A stretch of DNA of 41,615 nucleotides from Anaerolineae bacterium. GTDB taxonomy: Bacteria > Chloroflexota > Anaerolineae > Aggregatilineales > Phototrophicaceae. The notes under the pieces are model-generated. The model saw nothing but the letters and a program-made list of their open reading frames with translations, searched no databases and was not told the DNA's origin. Positions 13,450 through 22,664 of this stretch are shown here, piece after piece. A program made the position numbers and the translations under genes. Each line of letters starts with the position of its first letter. Position 1 is the stretch's first letter. The stretch covers positions 1 through 41,615 of the forward strand of contig JAFLCH010000007.1 in NCBI GenBank assembly GCA_017303775.1, written 5' to 3'.

Positions 13450-13714
13450 CTGCTTTTCCTCCACAGCTACACACGCAACAACCCTTCATTGTACCGTCGA
13501 ACCACCGCCTAATCGAGCCGGTTTAACCCCTGTTACACCCCAATCCGGCGCGGGTTCACAACATCTTTTGCAGCCGCCGGAAAGTGGTTATCTCCCCTCG
13601 CATACTCATTTTCCAGTCGCCGTAATTCTGCCTTTAATCAATCGTCTGGAAAGCCTTCCGACGCGCGGCTATCCTCCCCGCCCAACAAATCGATTTCATG
13701 GAGGAAATGTCAAC

Positions 13715-15592
13715 GTGTCGATGAAACAATCGAAAACGGGGTATCGTTACTTAAGCTATGGACTGCTGACCGCTCTGCTGTTGGTCATCACCAGCCTGTT
13801 CGTATTCGCGCAGGACACCGCTGCCTGCGAAGCCGGAAGCCGCCTGTTCACGCACGCCCTTGGCGAAAGCTGCATTCCCGAACACCCACTGCGCGTCGTT
13901 GTGCTGGATACAGGCGAGTTGGATAACGCCCTCGCCCTTGGTGCGCCCGTCGTCGGTGCGCCTGTCGAAGATGCCCTTCGCTATCAAGCCTATTTGGATG
14001 GTCAACTAGAGGGCATCGCCAGCACCGGTTCGATCAGTGAACCCAATTTTGAAGCCATCCTCGCCCTCGCTCCCGACCTCATTTTGGGCAGTAAGCAGCG
14101 CTACGAAGCCATCTACCCCCAGCTTTCGGAAATCGCCCCCACCGTCCTCACCCAATCACTGCGCGTGCCGTGGCAGGAGAACTTCAACCTGCATGCCGAC
14201 GCCTTGGGCCGCACTACCGAAGCCGAAACACTGCTCGCCGCCTATGATGCACAGGTCGCCGATGTACAAGCCGCCCTTGGTGATTCGCTGGATACCCTCA
14301 CCGTCTCCATTATCCGCTTCCGTCCGGGGCAGGTGCGCTTGTACCTGAAAAGCTCCTACATCGGCTACATCCTGCAAGATGTAGGCTTGCAGCGTCCCCC
14401 TTCGCAAGATCAGGATGTGTTCTCGGCTGAAATTTCGATTGAAGAAATGCAGCAGGCCGACGCCGATTACATCTTCGTCACTGGCTACGATGTCGAAGAC
14501 AGTGAACGCGAAACCTTCCTCAACAGCCCCATGTGGCAAACGCTCGGCGCAGTGCAAAGCGGGCGCGTCATTGATGTCAATGATGATACATGGATTGCCG
14601 GTCTGGGTGTACAAGCCGCGCAGCTTGTCCTCGCTGATCTCGTCCGATACCTAGGCGCGCCCACCACAGCCGTCACGACCTGCGAACCGGGTTTCCGCCT
14701 CTTCGACCATGAACTACTCGCCACCGATCCAGTGTGTGTGCCCGAAGACCCCCAGCGAATCGTTGCACTGGATATGAGCATCATCGAGCTGCTCATGATC
14801 GCCGGTGAAACCCCTGCCGCGGTCCCTGCCGTCGCCTTCAACTCCTACATCCGGATGCACCCTGAGCTAGAATCACCCCTGAATCAAGTGTTGGAAACTG
14901 CCGTCGATACTGGCTATCCGCCCAACCTCGAAGCCATTCTCTCCTCCGAACCGGATCTCATCATCAGCCCCAATGACTTCATCAGCCAGACCATTTTCGA
15001 AGAACTCAACGCCAGCTCCACCACCATCCTCTTCACGCCGCAGCCCGGAGATTGGCGCAGCCGTTTGAGCTTCGCCGGTGAACTGCTCGGCTTGACGGAA
15101 ACCGTAGATCAAGTGCTGGCCGATTATGATGTGCGAGTCGCGGAACTGAAGGACGCACTCGCTAGCGATGCTGCCGAAACCACCGTCTCGCTCATCCGCA
15201 CCTTCCCCGACCAAATCGGCTTACTCGTCTCCGGCACCAATGCCGCTGCGATTCTGGAAAGCGTTGGTTTGGCGCGTCCCGAATCGCAAAGCGTGGATTA
15301 CGATTACGTCCTCAGCCAACTGAACGGGCGTCCGGAAATCCTCATCTCGACCGAAGAATTGGGCTTAGCTGATGGCGATTACATCTTCGTCTTCGGTGAC
15401 ACGTCCGCGCTGGTTGCCAATCCGCTGTGGGGAGCGCTCGGCGCGGTGCAAAACGGGCAGGCATTTGAAGTCGGCTACTATTGGTGGGGTGATGATCTTT
15501 TCTCTGCCCACGACATTCTGGACGACCTGTTCACTCATATAGCAGGTATCGAAGCTGAAAACGGCAACCCATTTGAAAATGGGCTGGAATAA
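13715..15592 (+). CDS. Tandem-duplicated FepB/FecB-type periplasmic binding protein
   Basis: A 625-residue exported protein made of two fused copies of the metal-chelate binding fold (siderophore, haem or cobalamin uptake). A signal peptide lies around residues 12-33. Copy 1 runs from about residue 38 (CEAGSRLFTH, CIPEHPLRVVVLD) and copy 2 from about 323 (CEPGFRLFDH, CVPEDPQRIVALD). Each then has NFEAIL/NLEAIL, APDLILG/EPDLIIS, and an ADYIFVTG/GDYIFVFG ending with W-GALGAVQ-G. Normal family members have one such domain of about 300 residues. The GTG at 13715 is chosen because GGAGG lies ten bases upstream; the ATG two codons later is possible. No permease or ATPase is adjacent. The ligand is unknown. 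Confidence 0.88.
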   Translation: MSMKQSKTGYRYLSYGLLTALLLVITSLFVFAQDTAACEAGSRLFTHALGESCIPEHPLRVVVLDTGELDNALALGAPVVGAPVEDALRYQAYLDGQLEGIASTGSISEPNFEAILALAPDLILGSKQRYEAIYPQLSEIAPTVLTQSLRVPWQENFNLHADALGRTTEAETLLAAYDAQVADVQAALGDSLDTLTVSIIRFRPGQVRLYLKSSYIGYILQDVGLQRPPSQDQDVFSAEISIEEMQQADADYIFVTGYDVEDSERETFLNSPMWQTLGAVQSGRVIDVNDDTWIAGLGVQAAQLVLADLVRYLGAPTTAVTTCEPGFRLFDHELLATDPVCVPEDPQRIVALDMSIIELLMIAGETPAAVPAVAFNSYIRMHPELESPLNQVLETAVDTGYPPNLEAILSSEPDLIISPNDFISQTIFEELNASSTTILFTPQPGDWRSRLSFAGELLGLTETVDQVLADYDVRVAELKDALASDAAETTVSLIRTFPDQIGLLVSGTNAAAILESVGLARPESQSVDYDYVLSQLNGRPEILISTEELGLADGDYIFVFGDTSALVANPLWGALGAVQNGQAFEVGYYWWGDDLFSAHDILDDLFTHIAGIEAENGNPFENGLE

Positions 15593-15615
15593 GGCCTGAA
15601 CATTTGCTGTGTATA

Positions 15616-15644
15616 CGGGGGCAGTCGATGATCGGCTGCTCCCG
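15616..15644 (+). terminator. GC-rich hairpin after the tandem binding protein gene
   Basis: A 12-pair stem including two G-T pairs (arms 15616-15627 and 15633-15644, loop ATGAT) lies 23 bases after the stop. There is no T run after it, so it may stabilise the mRNA 3' end rather than terminate by itself. Confidence 0.5.
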
Positions 15645-15925
15645 CACATGAGGAACATCACCATCTAAGAAGCCTTTGAGCTGTAGCAAATCGCGACCAA
15701 CCTCCCGTTTTACCTCAAGCTCATATGACAGGAAAACATGGCACGTATAAATCAAATTTCTTCAACGGGATTCGGGGTTTAACCGGGGGAAATCACAGGC
15801 TAAACCTCCGGGGGGTCGTGGCAGAACCCGCATTAAGCCAAGAAATTAATCACACCGGTAGAATTTCGTGGGGGAGGCAATTTAAGATTTGTAGATCATC
15901 TCTCAAAGTTGAATTGCTATCCAGA
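15645..15925. other. Leader/intergenic region upstream of the DtxR-like gene
   Basis: No gene is seen. The DtxR frame stays open upstream to an ATG at 15725, but that extension has no family similarity. GGTTTA (from about 15776) and TAAACC (about 15800), and nearby CCGG-rich words, could pair to form a structured leader; I match no known riboswitch. Confidence 0.45.
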
Positions 15926-16624
15926 ATGTCCGTTATGACAAGTCACCGTCCACTGGGTTCTACGCTGCGCGAATTCCTGCTCGATCTGTACCAGCTCAGT
16001 GAGCGGGTGGAGTTCAGTGAGCATTACCTCAGCCCGTCTGATCTCACCCATTTGTTGTATGCCACACCCGCCTCATTGAGTCGCTCGATGGCTGAACTGA
16101 AAAAAATGAATCTTGTGGAGCATCAGCCTTATCACGGGGTACGGCTCACAGAAGCCGGTCGGCAGGCAGCACTACCATATGTACGCCGCCAGCGGATTGC
16201 CGAAGTATTTTTGAATCAGGTGATGGGCTTTGAGTGGGACACGATTCACGAAGAGGCAAAACGTTTAGTCGGCGGAATGACTGAAGCCGTCACCGAGCGC
16301 ATGTTTGAAATCGCCGGTTCTCCACAAACCTGCCCGCATGGAGAACCGATCCCTGACCGCGACGGTCACTTCACTCGCCCGAATGACCATCCGCTTCATC
16401 GTTTGCCATTTAAGACCCCGCTCGTCATCACACGGGTGTTAGCCCGCGAGCCGGATCGTTTGAAGTACATCGGCGCGCTCCGTCTGCGCCCCGGAACACC
16501 GCTGCAAGTGATTCATATCGCGCCCTTCGACGGGCCGCTCCAACTGCGCTTGCCCGATGAGTTCCGCATCATCGGGCATAATCTGGCTGAAGTGATTTAT
16601 GCCCGTCCGGTTGAGAATGAATAA
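15926..16624 (+). CDS. DtxR/MntR-family transcriptional regulator lacking primary metal ligands
   Basis: A 232-residue regulator with the DtxR plan: winged helix (about 15-75), dimerisation helices (80-145) and a FeoA/SH3-like C-terminal domain (160-228). The segment YVRRQRIAEVFLNQVMGF followed by DTIHEEAKRLVGGMTE aligns without gaps to DtxR. By that alignment DtxR His79 is Gln89, Glu83 is Glu93 and His98 is His108. Cys102, Glu105 and His106 of the primary site become Lys112, Val115 and Gly116. The conserved CPHGEPIP is kept. It is probably still DNA-binding, but canonical Fe/Mn sensing is doubtful. The ATG at 15926 or the one at 15935 could be the start; neither has a good ribosome site. It follows the tandem binding protein, a possible target. 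Confidence 0.87.
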   Translation: MSVMTSHRPLGSTLREFLLDLYQLSERVEFSEHYLSPSDLTHLLYATPASLSRSMAELKKMNLVEHQPYHGVRLTEAGRQAALPYVRRQRIAEVFLNQVMGFEWDTIHEEAKRLVGGMTEAVTERMFEIAGSPQTCPHGEPIPDRDGHFTRPNDHPLHRLPFKTPLVITRVLAREPDRLKYIGALRLRPGTPLQVIHIAPFDGPLQLRLPDEFRIIGHNLAEVIYARPVENE

Positions 16625-17289: not shown

Positions 17290-18498
17290 TCAGTTTTCCT
17301 CGCCTGCGATAGCTTCCGGATCCCATTCAGCAAAGGGGTCTTCAAAGCTGCGCCACGCTCGCCAGCCTAGCGCCATCTCATCATCCGTCAATAAGCACTC
17401 GTTCAAAGCATTCGTGATGAACTTTGGTTGAAGATCAATCCCGATAATCACCAACTCCTGCCGGCGGTCACCAAACTCGCCGTCAAAGTGTCGCTTCAAA
17501 TGTGTCACCAGCGCGGCATCCTCCGGATATTCATCATCCGGCACAGTCACCCACCAGTTCCCCCCATATTCCAACGAAATCACTTCCCCCGCCTGCGACC
17601 AGATGCCTACAAGGTTATGGCGTGTCGCCAGCCAGATGAAACCTTTGGAGCGGATCACTCCGTTCAAAAGATCGCTTTCCAGCACGTCCAATAACCGTTG
17701 CGGATGAAAAGGACGGCGTGCGCGGTAGACAAAACTGCTGACCCCATATTCCTCTGTTTCCGGGGTATGCTCTTTGCCGGAAAGCCATTCGTCGAAGGCA
17801 GCCGCTTGATCAAAATCAAACCGATGTGTGTTCAGCACTTCCTTTAGCGGAATCTGGCCGAAGCTCGTCTGGATCAGATTGGCGTGCGGATTCATCCGTC
17901 GTAACAGCGCCTCGACGCGCTGAAGATCATCCCCCTCTACCAGATCCGTTTTGTTGAGCACCAGCACATTCGCGAACTCGATCTGATCAACCAACAAATC
18001 GGCGATGGTACGTTCATCTGTATCATTCATACCCATACCCCGCTCAACCAGCGTATCCAGCGTTGCCAGTTCGCGCAGTATATTCCGGGCATCAACAACC
18101 GTCACCATCGTATCCAGCCGTGCAATATCACCCAAACAAAACCCATCATCAAGCGCGAAGGTGAAGGTTTCCGCCACCGGCAGCGGTTCCGCGATACCTG
18201 TCGCTTCGATCAAGAGATAGTCGAAACGCCCCTCGTGTGCAAGACGGGTAACTTCTTGCAGCAAATCATCCCGCAGCGTGCAGCAGATGCATCCGTTGCT
18301 CAACTCCACCAGCTTTTCCTCTGTCCGGCTCAAATGTGCGCCGCTGTCAACCAGTTGAACATCAATGTTCACCTCGCTCATATCGTTGACAATGACGGCA
18401 ACACGCAGCCCTTCTCGGTTATTGAGAACATGATTCAGTAAGGTGGTTTTGCCTGCCCCCAAAAAACCGGAAAGCACAGTGACGGGTAATTTTTTCAT
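17290..18498 (-). CDS. COG0523/CobW-family GTPase (ZigA/YciC-type zinc chaperone), copy 1
   Basis: A 402-residue G3E GTPase. The P-loop is GFLGAGKT (11-18), the metal motif CxCC is C70-I-C72-C73, NKTD gives guanine specificity, and a CobW C-terminal domain starts near 270 ([15 protein letters not shown]). The [10 protein letters not shown] sequence after the P-loop is characteristic of the ZigA/YciC subgroup, made under zinc starvation and thought to hand zinc to client proteins. The ATG has AGGAG eight bases upstream and overlaps the stop of the reductase-like gene by four bases (ATGA), so translation is coupled. It is the last gene of the operon read from 21252. Confidence 0.92.
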
Positions 18499-19433
18499 GC
18501 ATGTTTCTCCTGATTATGATGCGGATACCAATCCCGAATGATGGCATAAGCCGCTTGACTTCCAGCAAAGGCAGCCCCTAATGAACTCGCCCATCCCTGA
18601 ATATCACCGACAGCCCACAACCCCTTAACCGCTGTTTGGTGCATAGCATCGGTTTTGAGGTGGTCATTTTCGTCCACCTCAAGACCGAAATTGGCGATGA
18701 GTTTTTGCGTAAGAGGTAATGCTTGTTCGGGGGGTGTCCATAGCAGCGTGCCAACCTCGACCTGTTCGCCGCTATCGAGCGTGACAGCATTGACCTCACC
18801 GGATGTGTGATGCACCTCAACAATCTTGCCCATATGCACAGGGATACCACGCGCGGCAAAATCAGCCAGATGCGCAGCCTCCGGGGCAATATCCGGGTAC
18901 AAAATAATTTTCGCGTGTTTCGTCCAGTGCTGGTACAGGATGGGAAGATGCTCAAGCGCCCGCAGCGATGTGATGACCAACCCCCACACACGATCCCGAT
19001 TTTCGTAACCGTCGCAGAAAGGACAGGCAATGATGCTCTTGCCCCAGCAAGCGAGGTAACCGGGAACATCAGGATAAACATCACGGAAACCGGTTGCCAC
19101 AATGACGTGTTTTGCTGTAAACGGGGTACCACCAGCCTCGCCGCTAACATCAAAGCCGCCTTCTGCGTTGGCTTGTACGTCTATGATCCGTTCGATGCGA
19201 CGTTCTGCGCTGTTATACACGTCAATTTGCTGCCACGCTTGTTCGCGAATTTGTGCCGGCAGCAGCCCATCCAGCCCCACGAAATTATGCACACCGTGCG
19301 ATGCCGCATTGCGGGGTGGTTCGGGTGCGTCAAAGATGATAACCCGCTTACGAGTACGCGCGAGTATTAAAGCCGCCTGTAACCCTGCAGGCCCGCCGCC
19401 AATTATGGCAATATCATAGTGTTGTTCAGTCAT
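18495..19433 (-). CDS. Thioredoxin-reductase-like FAD/NAD(P) oxidoreductase
   Basis: A 312-residue class II pyridine nucleotide-disulphide oxidoreductase. The FAD motif is IIGGGPAG (10-17), the ATG motif is IVATGFRD, and the redox pair is C137-P-F-C140 in ACPFCDGYE, as in thioredoxin reductase-like proteins. The C-terminal FAD segment is [11 protein letters not shown]. The second nucleotide-binding motif is degenerate ([14 protein letters not shown], no GxGxxA), so the electron donor is uncertain. The ATG at 19433 has GAGG six bases upstream and lies 11 bases after the preceding COG0523 stop. It is sandwiched between two zinc-type GTPases, which suggests a role in thiol or zinc-site redox; that is inference. 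Confidence 0.88.
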
Positions 19434-19444
19434 GCTATCCTCGT

Positions 19445-20653
19445 TTATGATGCACGTTGCATTTGCCAATTCGGGAACGGATCAGGGAACAATTCCCAAC
19501 CTGCTTCGCCAAGTGCGAGTTCATCATCATTAAGCAGTGCCGCCTGAAGCTGCGTCAGCATCATTTCTTTAGGCATTTGCATACCAATGAATACAAGTTC
19601 TTGGCGTCGATCTCCAAATGGCTCTTTCCAGTAATCAGCCAGATATTGCGCAATTTCATCTTGAGTAGGCCATTGCCCTTTGGGGGTGGCGGCTAGCCAC
19701 TGCCCAGCAGGAGCAACGCGAGCAATATGTCCGGCGAGTGACCAGTTGATGCCCATGTGATGCCGTGTTGCCAGCCAAAAAAACCCTTTGGAACGCAGAA
19801 CCGTATGCATATGATCGCCTTTAAGAAAGTCCATCAACCGCACAGGGTGAAAAGGGCGATATGCCCTAAAAACAAAGCTGCTGATTCCATACTCTTCTGT
19901 TTCTGGCGTATGCTCGCCTTCAAGCTCTTTCAACCAACCGGCTGAACGCTGTGCAGCTTCCATATCAAACATTCCCGTATTGAGGATGGCATTCGTAGGC
20001 ACTTGAGCCTGTTCGGCGTGGATGAAACGGGCTGTAGGGTTCAGTTTGCGCAAGATGCCTTCTAATGTTTCGATCTGCTCTGACGTGGCGAGATCCGTTT
20101 TGTTCAAAATGATGACGTTAGCAAATTCAACCTGATCAATCAGAAGATCGGATAAAGTGCGATTGTCCTCATCACTAACCTCCATGTTCAGTGCTTTGAG
20201 CCGCTGCCCCTCGCGGTAGTCATTTAGCCAACTGCTGGCATCAACTACCGTAACCATAGTATCGAGCCGTGTGATATCCATGAGACTCATGACGCCATCA
20301 GGGGTAGGGAAAGAGAAGGTCATCGCTACCGGCAGTGGTTCGGCGATACCAGTGGACTCGATAAGCAAGTAATCGAAGCGCCCATCCTGTGCAAGCAGCG
20401 TGACTTCTTGCAGCAAATCTTCACGTAGTGTGCAGCAGATGCAACCGTTGGTCATCTCGACCAATTTTTCTTCCGTCCGGCTCAGATGCGCACCACCATC
20501 ACGCACGAGTTGAGCATCGATGTTTACTTCGCTCATATCATTGACAATAACGGCGACACGCAGCCCTTCACGATTATTGAGGACGTTGTTCAGCAGCGTG
20601 GTTTTGCCTGCGCCAAGAAAACCGGAAAGCACTGTCACGGGAAGTTTTTTCAT
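19445..20653 (-). CDS. COG0523/CobW-family GTPase (ZigA/YciC-type zinc chaperone), copy 2
   Basis: A 402-residue paralogue of the protein at 17290-18498. The first 50 residues are nearly identical, and it has the same P-loop, CxCC at 71-74 (CICC), NKTDL and C-terminal domain (SFVFRAYRPFHPVRL, then [14 protein letters not shown]). The central part (about 110-260) and the C-terminus differ more, so the copies may serve different clients. The start is the ATG at 20653 with AAGGAG 11 bases upstream; a TTG three codons earlier sits too close to that site. It begins two bases after the stop of the upstream unknown gene. Confidence 0.91.
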   Translation of the reverse strand: MKKLPVTVLSGFLGAGKTTLLNNVLNNREGLRVAVIVNDMSEVNIDAQLVRDGGAHLSRTEEKLVEMTNGCICCTLREDLLQEVTLLAQDGRFDYLLIESTGIAEPLPVAMTFSFPTPDGVMSLMDITRLDTMVTVVDASSWLNDYREGQRLKALNMEVSDEDNRTLSDLLIDQVEFANVIILNKTDLATSEQIETLEGILRKLNPTARFIHAEQAQVPTNAILNTGMFDMEAAQRSAGWLKELEGEHTPETEEYGISSFVFRAYRPFHPVRLMDFLKGDHMHTVLRSKGFFWLATRHHMGINWSLAGHIARVAPAGQWLAATPKGQWPTQDEIAQYLADYWKEPFGDRRQELVFIGMQMPKEMMLTQLQAALLNDDELALGEAGWELFPDPFPNWQMQRAS

Positions 20654-20655
20654 GT

Positions 20656-21252
20656 TTAGCAATACTCCTTACGAATGACTTCGGATAATGTGTGCCAGCT
20701 GGGTGCGAGTTTGGGGGCGGTTACCCCTCCGTGATAACGACGGCGCAATGGCCATGCAGCGATTGTTTGTGTACGATAATCAATCGGAAGTTGTGTTGTT
20801 AGCCAAGCCTCATATGCAGCGATCCGATCCAATGCTTCACCGAGCAAGGTGAGGGCATTATGCTGTTCTTGAGGGTCACGGGGTTCATGAAGCGGCGGCA
20901 ACTGATCAGGCTGCCATGCCTGCGGATAGAGGTCGGTTTGTGGAGTATAACCCAAACGAAAACCTGAACGACCGAGAAATAAACTGCCGATATCAGGAGC
21001 GGCAATCCACAATCCCCACCCCCACAATGTCAAAAAGTAACCAGATTGGGCAGCGCGCGTGTAAGCGCTATGCCAGCGGGCTTGAGGTGACGGGCGGCGC
21101 GCGAAACCATACGTAAGCAGCAAATTACCTTCCTTCCGACGCACATCACAACCCCAGCACCACATTTGTTGTTCTATTAGGGCTTCACCTTGTTTCACAA
21201 TTGATCTTGGAAGTTTGAAAGGTAAAGATGACGGTGTGACTGCAAGTGTCAT
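20656..21252 (-). CDS. Unknown CxxC protein, first gene of the zinc-type operon
   Basis: A 198-residue protein I do not recognise. It has one Cys pair, C32-W-G-C35, in QQMWCWGCDVRRKEGNLLL, then many aromatic residues (YFLTLWGWGLWIA near 72-84). The C-terminal half is helical, with LTLLGEALDRIAAYEAWL and YRTQTIAAWPLRRRYHGG. No signal peptide or convincing membrane helix is seen. The ATG has AAAGGA six bases upstream. It is the promoter-proximal gene under two Zur-like boxes and is tightly followed by a COG0523 GTPase. A zinc-handling or zinc-independent substitute role is a guess from context only. Confidence 0.8.
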   Translation of the reverse strand: MTLAVTPSSLPFKLPRSIVKQGEALIEQQMWCWGCDVRRKEGNLLLTYGFARRPSPQARWHSAYTRAAQSGYFLTLWGWGLWIAAPDIGSLFLGRSGFRLGYTPQTDLYPQAWQPDQLPPLHEPRDPQEQHNALTLLGEALDRIAAYEAWLTTQLPIDYRTQTIAAWPLRRRYHGGVTAPKLAPSWHTLSEVIRKEYC

Positions 21253-21290: not shown

Positions 21291-21305
21291 TGATACTTTG
21301 TATCG
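21291..21305. promoter_or_regulatory. Zur-like operator, box 1
   Basis: TGATACTTTGTATCG is an imperfect 7-1-7 palindrome 39 bases upstream of the first gene of the COG0523 operon. It lies just downstream of the predicted transcription start and closely matches box 2, 27 bases away. Confidence 0.65.
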
Positions 21306-21316
21306 ATTCTGATCAA

Positions 21317-21345
21317 ATGATACATTGTATCAATTGCAGTTTCAA
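21317..21345 (-). promoter_or_regulatory. Promoter of the COG0523 operon overlapped by Zur-like box 2
   Basis: On the minus strand TTGAAA (21340-21345) and TATCAT (21317-21322) are 17 bases apart. The perfect 7-1-7 palindrome TGATACA-T-TGTATCA (21318-21332) covers the -10 and half the spacer, so a bound repressor would block polymerase. The shape resembles Fur-superfamily boxes, in particular cyanobacterial-type Zur boxes (TGATAAT-N-ATTATCA, from memory). No Zur gene is in the window. The remaining region up to 21623 holds no gene that I can support. Confidence 0.65.
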
Positions 21346-21623: not shown

Positions 21624-22664
21624 CTAAATAGAACCTCTAATGACCAACTTCCAATCACTTTGGAAAAAGCGTCCCGGCCCTGTAACTTTGCCTTCGATAC
21701 GGTCAAATAAAATTTCAGCGAGCTGCCGCCCGATTTGTCTTAAATCGCGGCGAACGATGGTGAGCGGTGGAGAAATGATAGTTGCTTCAGGAATGTCGTC
21801 AAACCCCATAACACCCACATCTTCCGGAACTTGAAGCCCGGCGGCTTTGGCTTCGAGGATAGCACCGATTGCCATTAGGGAATTCGCCGCGAAAATAGCG
21901 GTTGGCAACTTCCCGTGCTGGATAAATGCTCGCATCCCATGATGCCCACCCTCAATGGTGAATTCGCCTTGCTGAATAAAGTTTGGTTCGATCGTTAATC
22001 CCGCTTCTTCCATTGCCCGCATATAACCGCGAACTCGTGAAGGTCCCGGTGGCATTTGATTCAGAGTTGAAATAAACCCAATACGGCGGTGGCCTTTAAC
22101 CTCGATCAGCCATTTGACAGCTTCATAAGTTGCCGGCTCACTAGTCCCCCCCACAACATCAATTGATGGGTGATCCACCTGTGCTCCCAATGCTACAATC
22201 GGCACGCGGCTATGCTTGATGAAGGTATCCAAATCCTCTGATGTTAGACAGTGTGGAGCCATGATGATGCCATCCACCGGACGCCTGAGGGAAGCATTGA
22301 GAAATCGTCGTTCATGTTCGTAAATATGGTCACTGTTTGAGATGAGTACTTCATAATCGTGTTGATCGGTGAAGTCCTGAATCCCTCGCACAATTGGATG
22401 ATAAAAAGCGTTCGAAATATCGCCGATCATGACCGCAATCATCTGCATATGCTGAGTCCGTAAACTGCGCGCAATCATATTTGGCTGATAATTGAGCTGC
22501 TCCACTGCATCAAGGATCTTTTGGCGGGTTTCTTCACTAATTCGGATCGAGGTGGCGTTCTGACTAAGAACGCGGGAAACGGTACTATGAGAAACACCCG
22601 CTAATTTGGCAACATCCTGCATTGTTGGAAGGTTTGAAGTTGGGCGCGACTTTTTTTCGGTCAT
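21624..22664 (-). CDS. LacI-family transcriptional regulator
   Basis: A 346-residue repressor: LacI helix-turn-helix at about residues 15-60 (MQDVAKLAGVSHSTVSRVLSQN, hinge region YQPNMIARSLRT) and a periplasmic-binding-type effector domain after it. It starts at the ATG at 22664, though no good ribosome site is seen. It lies 21 bases after the SDR gene on the same strand and downstream of a ribose-type ABC importer, so it probably controls those genes in response to their sugar. Candidate operator half-sites lie in front of the ATPase gene (27672-27701). Confidence 0.92.
   Translation of the reverse strand: MTEKKSRPTSNLPTMQDVAKLAGVSHSTVSRVLSQNATSIRISEETRQKILDAVEQLNYQPNMIARSLRTQHMQMIAVMIGDISNAFYHPIVRGIQDFTDQHDYEVLISNSDHIYEHERRFLNASLRRPVDGIIMAPHCLTSEDLDTFIKHSRVPIVALGAQVDHPSIDVVGGTSEPATYEAVKWLIEVKGHRRIGFISTLNQMPPGPSRVRGYMRAMEEAGLTIEPNFIQQGEFTIEGGHHGMRAFIQHGKLPTAIFAANSLMAIGAILEAKAAGLQVPEDVGVMGFDDIPEATIISPPLTIVRRDLRQIGRQLAEILFDRIEGKVTGPGRFFQSDWKLVIRGSI

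Follow-up and report, generated by a model that had tools for sequence, protein, structure and literature searches.

Tandem TGATAC palindromes at a COG0523 operon promoter are probable Zur operators in an Anaerolineae bacterium

What regulator reads a pair of palindromes placed on the promoter of an operon with two COG0523 genes? The question is raised by positions 21291-21345 of a 41,615-nucleotide (nt) stretch, here called the window, of contig JAFLCH010000007.1 from an Anaerolineae bacterium (Chloroflexota; GenBank assembly GCA_017303775.1, 4.47 Mb, 76% complete). The two palindromes follow the pattern TGATAC-N3-GTATCA, hereafter the box, and on the minus strand they precede four genes, the first of which encodes a protein of 198 amino acids (aa) without an assigned family. 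From sequence comparisons within this genome, among its relatives and across the phylum, we conclude that the tandem sites very probably serve as operators for Zur, a Fur-family repressor that senses zinc, and that this repressor is most likely the protein that we call FurA.

Tandem palindromes and the promoter at 21291-21345

The initial annotation had described two palindromes at 21291-21305 and 21318-21332, starting 27 base pairs (bp) apart, the perfect 7-1-7 copy overlapping the spacer and the -10 element of a TTGAAA-17-TATCAT promoter. Both sites and the overlap are directly visible on the minus strand, where the elements are as follows:

21318-21332, minus strand: operator 1, a perfect 7-1-7 palindrome, TGATACATTGTATCA on the plus strand and TGATACAATGTATCA on the minus strand, with 0 mismatches to TGATAC-N3-GTATCA
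21291-21305, minus strand: operator 2, TGATACTTTGTATCG on the plus strand and CGATACAAAGTATCA on the minus strand, with 1 mismatch to TGATAC-N3-GTATCA
21340-21345, minus strand: -35 element TTGAAA
21317-21322, minus strand: -10 element TATCAT, made by the GTATCA half of operator 1

Read along the minus strand, TTGAAA (21345-21340) is followed by a 17-nt spacer, TATCAT (21322-21317), operator 2 (21305-21291) and the ATG at 21252. Operator 1 (21332-21318) spans the end of the spacer and constitutes the -10 element. Operator 2, whose palindrome pairs at 5/7 positions, begins 12 nt 3' of the -10 and spans roughly +5 to +19; the second copy had been proposed to cover the expected transcript start, and it lies adjacent to the start on the downstream side but does not cover the start itself.

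The fusion of box and -10 recurs elsewhere. We oriented 44 sites by their target gene (7 from this genome and 37 exact sites from 40 related genomes, all beside zinc-type targets, with P-type ATPase and FecB-type genes included and seven unexplained places excluded) and obtained the extended consensus tAAtTGATACnnnGTATCAaTtA. TTG stands exactly 17 nt before TATCAN, the spacing of the window promoter, at 13 of these 44 sites, as compared with 0, 2, 1, 2, 0 and 1 sites at spacings of 14, 15, 16, 18, 19 and 20 nt, respectively. In about one third of the sites, the right half of the box thus appears to be the -10 element of a sigma-70-type promoter, so that a protein bound there would have to occlude the polymerase. 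Promoter activity at these sites is predicted from the motifs.

Genes beside the box in this genome, its relatives and the phylum

In the source genome, the exact box occurs four times, each copy in a tandem pair or next to a one-mismatch partner, and these copies are restricted to the window promoter and to two divergent promoters on contigs C235 and C334. The tandem boxes start 27 bp apart in the window, 23 bp at C235 and 29 bp at C334, a variation that agrees with boxes acting as independent backups and not as one rigid assembly. The pair at C235 lies between the Fur-family gene FurA and a znuA gene (PF01297, 278 bits) with an ATP-binding cassette (ABC) ATPase. On one side of the C334 pair, another Fur-family gene, FurB, is followed by genes for a ZnuA-ZinT fusion, an ABC transporter and a COG0523 protein; on the other side are two COG0523 genes and a frame-shifted homolog of the 198-aa protein. 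A protein of 773 aa encoded at L047 10381-12702 combines ZnuA with two ZinT-like stretches (PF01297, PF09223). On C172, a one-mismatch box precedes a cysteine-free paralog of ribosomal protein L28 and a COG0523 gene, and the ordinary L28 gene on C424, whose product has CEKC and CTKC pairs, is boxless. A box confined to the zinc-free member of a pair of zinc-binding and zinc-free ribosomal paralogs has been reported as a classic mark of Zur control (PMC3087516).

Allowing up to one mismatch, we found 13 places in the source genome, seven of them at four zinc promoters (the window, C235, C334 and C172). The remaining six are one contig-end copy of a zinc promoter, four intragenic places and an unexplained intergenic one. 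Nine of the 13 places carry one mismatch: two tandem partners, C172, its contig-end copy on C23, the four intragenic places (C1, C151, C235:4787 and C429), and the intergenic C399, which is without explanation.

Outside the source genome, the relatives contain 44 exact sites at 41 places. A neighbor was called when a gene matching the zinc set of the source genome started within 600 bp. Such a gene is present at 29/41 places, or at 30/41 counting L083, where the start is mis-called. The count rises to 34/41 with P-type ATPase and FecB-like references, which were added only after these genes had been seen beside boxes (two places before ZntA-type P-type ATPases and two before FecB-type metal-chelate binding proteins). 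Random places in 153 kb of source-genome stretches lie beside a zinc-set gene in 253/3060 cases (8.3%), an estimate that is too high, if anything, since the stretches include the zinc clusters; without 700 bp around the boxes, the background is 175/2959 (5.9%). A first background of 55/1632 (3.4%) was biased low, its loci having been picked partly for their lack of zinc genes. As a separate observation, a SaoD/DsrE-family gene in relative G030 (L095 4610-4996; NF040913, 196 bits) has an exact box 17 bp in front of it. The scan that the initial annotation had proposed recovered the box before znuA-type genes, which are frequent targets in the relatives, other COG0523 genes, the cysteine-less L28 paralog and two Fur-family genes.

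Control patterns gave far lower counts. With up to two mismatches, the source genome yields 110 forward matches versus 36 for the reversed pattern. Exact matches in the source genome and its 40 relatives number 48, versus 4 for the reversed pattern, and an unrelated control palindrome, TCATAG-N3-CTATGA, has 1 match (7 for its own reversed control). Within the window, up to three mismatches give 12 matches as against 11.84 expected from shuffles; because there is no excess at this level, the signal is confined to near-exact copies.

Starting from the genes instead of the sites, we found that 11 of 13 ZigA-like genes outside the source genome in an even draw of Chloroflexota genomes are preceded by a box with no more than one mismatch, as compared with approximately 0 in Markov-shuffled upstream DNA. 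Among 30 znuA-type loci examined out of 86 genomes with a match, 10, the one from the source genome included, show an upstream box with up to two mismatches, versus 0.14 expected. In other Chloroflexota families, TGAAAC-N3-GTTTCA or TGAAAA-N3-TTATCA occupies the same position before znuA, so that the TGATAC box is one variant among several in Chloroflexota, which suggests that the Zur boxes of the phylum are a family of drifting variants. The idea of a Chloroflexota-type box holds in part: the exact box is found in the family of this bacterium and in several further Chloroflexota families, but different variants occur elsewhere in the phylum.

The probable reader of the box and its alternatives

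A zinc-responsive Fur-family repressor, which had been offered as the best guess, is supported by the contents of the regulon: promoters of zinc-import, COG0523, zinc-free L28 and Fur-family genes all carry the box. From these contents we infer binding, zinc as the signal and repression as the direction of control. In the proposed mechanism, a zinc-loaded repressor dimer (FurA, perhaps FurB) would occupy TGATAC-N3-GTATCA, covering the -10 element that its GTATCA half forms, and the block would be tightened by another dimer bound to the downstream copy, such that RNA polymerase could not start. Upon a drop in zinc, the repressor would lose its metal and leave the DNA, permitting synthesis of the 198-aa protein, two ZigA-like zinc chaperones and an enzyme resembling thioredoxin reductase, together with the zinc importers, the ZnuA-ZinT fusion and the zinc-free L28.

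We compiled 44 distinct Fur-family genes from the source genome and its relatives. A box with up to two mismatches lies at the promoter of ten of these genes, FurA (C235) and FurB (C334) among them. The recognition helix has the sequence GRA[ST]V[FY]R in nine of the ten and, in the remaining one (L178), SRPTIYR, with an arginine at the same place. FurA and FurB have the helix motif in common though they are only 23% identical overall, and CxxC pairs are visible in both. A box lies upstream of 9/21 genes with the helix G[RK]x[STP]V[YFW]R and of 1/23 with other helices (Fisher p = 0.003); because the genes are related, this value overstates their independence, and the link to the helix is only a hint. 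The boxless Fur-family genes L019, L021, L150 and L152 also encode arginine at that place. We conjecture that the extra helix arginine reads the C-G pair of TGATAC. In relatives G014 and G015, which carry five and two exact boxes, respectively, a single Fur-family match was detected, in each case of the FurA type. FurA is thus the likely reader and would suffice in these genomes, provided that no second Fur gene was missed by the search. The third Fur-family gene of the source genome (C65), boxless and adjoining FeoA/FeoB genes, was ruled out as the reader.

Several observations weigh against Zur as the reader of this box. Exact sites are present in only 22/41 close genomes and, in the even draw of 300 Chloroflexota genomes, in 68. 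A zinc-type neighbor was found at only 11 of the 29 loci outside the source genome that were examined from these 68, and in 10 of the 29 the site is well inside an open reading frame; single exact matches at the scale of the phylum are therefore often due to chance. Among the relatives, 7/41 places (L058, L073, L075, L077, L090, L093 and L095) have no zinc-type neighbor, although a predominance of unrelated genes, the outcome that the initial annotation had set against Zur, is absent. Exact boxes stand directly at the start of ZntA-type exporter genes (L063 1-1515 and L069 1501-3014), which a simple uptake repressor is not expected to switch off, so that a Zur box is unexpected there unless Zur activates; activation of zitB by Zur has been reported in Streptomyces coelicolor (PMC5472717). 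Several FurA genes are boxless at their own promoter. FurA and FurB reach 37.0 and 35.5 bits, respectively, on the Zur model NF008646 / PRK11639, below its cut-off of 167, and are accordingly not filed under it. FurA is nearer the ferric-uptake regulator model, with 79.7 bits (also below the cut-off, here 146), and its best relatives in the PDB are Fur proteins.

These last two results are also what would be expected if the box were read by a Fur-family sensor of iron, manganese or peroxide (Fur, Mur or PerR) and not of zinc. Such a reader is nevertheless improbable, as the targets are zinc-specific (ZigA-like COG0523 proteins, ZinT fused to ZnuA, cysteine-free L28), which disfavors iron control, and as the one Fur-family gene that adjoins FeoA/FeoB lacks the box. 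Still less probable is a regulator of another family, with an incidental link to zinc: a LacI-type repressor gene (21624-22664) lies directly upstream, and regulators outside the Fur family are generally known to bind inverted repeats of similar size as well (TetR would be another candidate), but the box stands at Fur-family gene promoters in several genomes, and at the loci inspected, BLAST against the zinc set with reading by eye revealed no further regulator family recurring beside it. A chance near-palindrome in an AT-rich promoter, with which the shuffle-like number of three-mismatch matches in the window would agree, is ruled out by the control counts given above and by the majority of sites preceding one functional gene set.

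The operon, its first gene and comparison with known systems

The predicted Zur-controlled operon comprises four genes that overlap or almost overlap, all on the minus strand:

20656-21252, minus strand: first operon gene, 198-aa protein with an invariant MWC-x-G-x-D, without Pfam or NCBIfam family
19445-20653, minus strand: ZigA-like COG0523 GTPase (NF038288, 596.3 bits, cut-off 600); the open reading frame reaches 20662, with an ATG at 20653
18495-19469, minus strand: thioredoxin-reductase-like FAD/NAD(P) oxidoreductase
17290-18498, minus strand: second ZigA-like COG0523 GTPase (NF038288, 595.2 bits, cut-off 600)

COG0523 genes do follow the promoter, as had been stated. We name the two GTPases ZigA-like because both score just under the curated cut-off of the ZigA model.

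No Pfam or NCBIfam family was found for the 198-aa protein; 19 members scanned singly at E <= 1 gave isolated weak matches only. The members come from a scan of species genomes, at loci labeled as Chloroflexi/Anaerolineae, Rubrobacter, Actinobacteria, Planctomycetes groups and others; the labels are those of metagenome-assembled genomes, and binning errors may account for some of them (Bacteroidetes, Phycisphaeraceae). In 14/19 loci, from several phyla, a COG0523 gene is no more than about 4.5 kb away. Of the other five, one has an L28 gene only, and four, all labeled as planctomycete, have neither. In 6/19 loci (L128, L129, L131, L132, L133 and L137), the 300 bp upstream contain a Zur box with no more than one mismatch, and in L134 a box precedes the COG0523 gene just upstream of the family member; the Chloroflexota loci L130 and L135 have no box by the same measure. 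Paralogs of ribosomal proteins S14 or L28 are encoded downstream of the family gene in L131, L132 and L133. A second copy in the source genome, at L047 15321-15970, is split across two frames and is either a pseudogene or an assembly error.

The AlphaFold2 model of the 198-aa protein is confident (pLDDT 93.4, pTM 0.89). Foldseek found no match to it in the PDB at E <= 0.001, and VIA-align reached a Z of 5.1 at best, no higher than ordinary noise, which does not imply a novel fold. With one invariant cysteine and no invariant histidine, the family shows no evident zinc site of the usual kind. Our best guess is that the protein works with the ZigA-like GTPases, as their client or partner, and a family without annotation beside COG0523 genes offers a concrete candidate for what ZigA-type chaperones supply with zinc. 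A more far-reaching proposal, which we put forward tentatively and consider rather doubtful as a whole, is that these proteins of about 200 aa are an undescribed zinc-starvation family, clients or partners of ZigA-like COG0523 chaperones in several phyla, and that in Chloroflexota they stand under a Zur box turned -10 element, the C of which (A in the TGAAAA-type box) would be read by the extra arginine of the GRA[ST]V[FY]R helix.

Near the zinc operon, the plus strand of the window (13568-16624) also encodes a FecB-type binding protein in double form, matching PF01497 over two stretches, and behind it a DtxR/MntR-like repressor that contains a FeoA domain. Within the window, this FecB-type gene is not preceded by a near-exact TGATAC box. 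FecB-type genes of relative G014 (L082 and L084) do bear Zur boxes, hinting at uptake of zinc chelates. A GGC/CGT-rich long-run repeat, seen at L046 3797-4126, L050 85-336, L051 5625-6083, L055 2679-3262 and 11424-11954 of the window, seems by eye to be repeated in many parts of the source genome and at its contig ends; it mimics open reading frames and may break the assembly.

In the Zur regulons of Bacillus subtilis and S. coelicolor, as here, palindromic boxes lie on the promoters of znuABC-type importers and of a COG0523 gene (yciC), and zinc-free ribosomal paralogs are known there to be under Zur (PMC3087516). According to a 2018 review (PMC6103462), some Zur promoters carry one box at the -35 and another at the -10, and the paired boxes of promoters known in S. 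coelicolor and B. subtilis probably act as independent backups. The system differs from both in its half-site TGATAC, in having one box that is the -10 itself and a second downstream of the start, and in its two divergent Fur-family genes (FurA and FurB) with the same box. For Escherichia coli Zur, a one-dimer core RNNNY-xxx-RNNNY has been reported at the znuABC promoter (PMC4219657, PLoS Biol 2014). GATAC-N3-GTATC fits this core exactly, but two overlapping dimers share one element in E. coli, whereas two separate elements, 23-29 bp apart from start to start, are found in the window, C235 and C334. The placement of COG0523 genes behind Zur sites also agrees with the COG0523/ZigA chaperones of Haas et al. 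2009 (PMC2770081), the main text of which does not contain "Chloroflex". In the literature searched, judged partly by titles and the beginnings of abstracts, no Chloroflexota Zur operator is described. RegPrecise 3.0 is reported to hold a Chloroflexi collection of 30 transcription-factor regulogs from 5 genomes and to count Zur among its widespread collections (PMC3840689), and the Chloroflexi collection may already list the box for some families. The type of regulon is well known, and the TGATAC box is a lineage-specific variant of it. What looks new is this box in Chloroflexota, its fusion with the -10 element and an unannotated family within the regulon. The box provides a motif with which zinc regulons can be searched for in a large phylum whose members are mostly uncultured.
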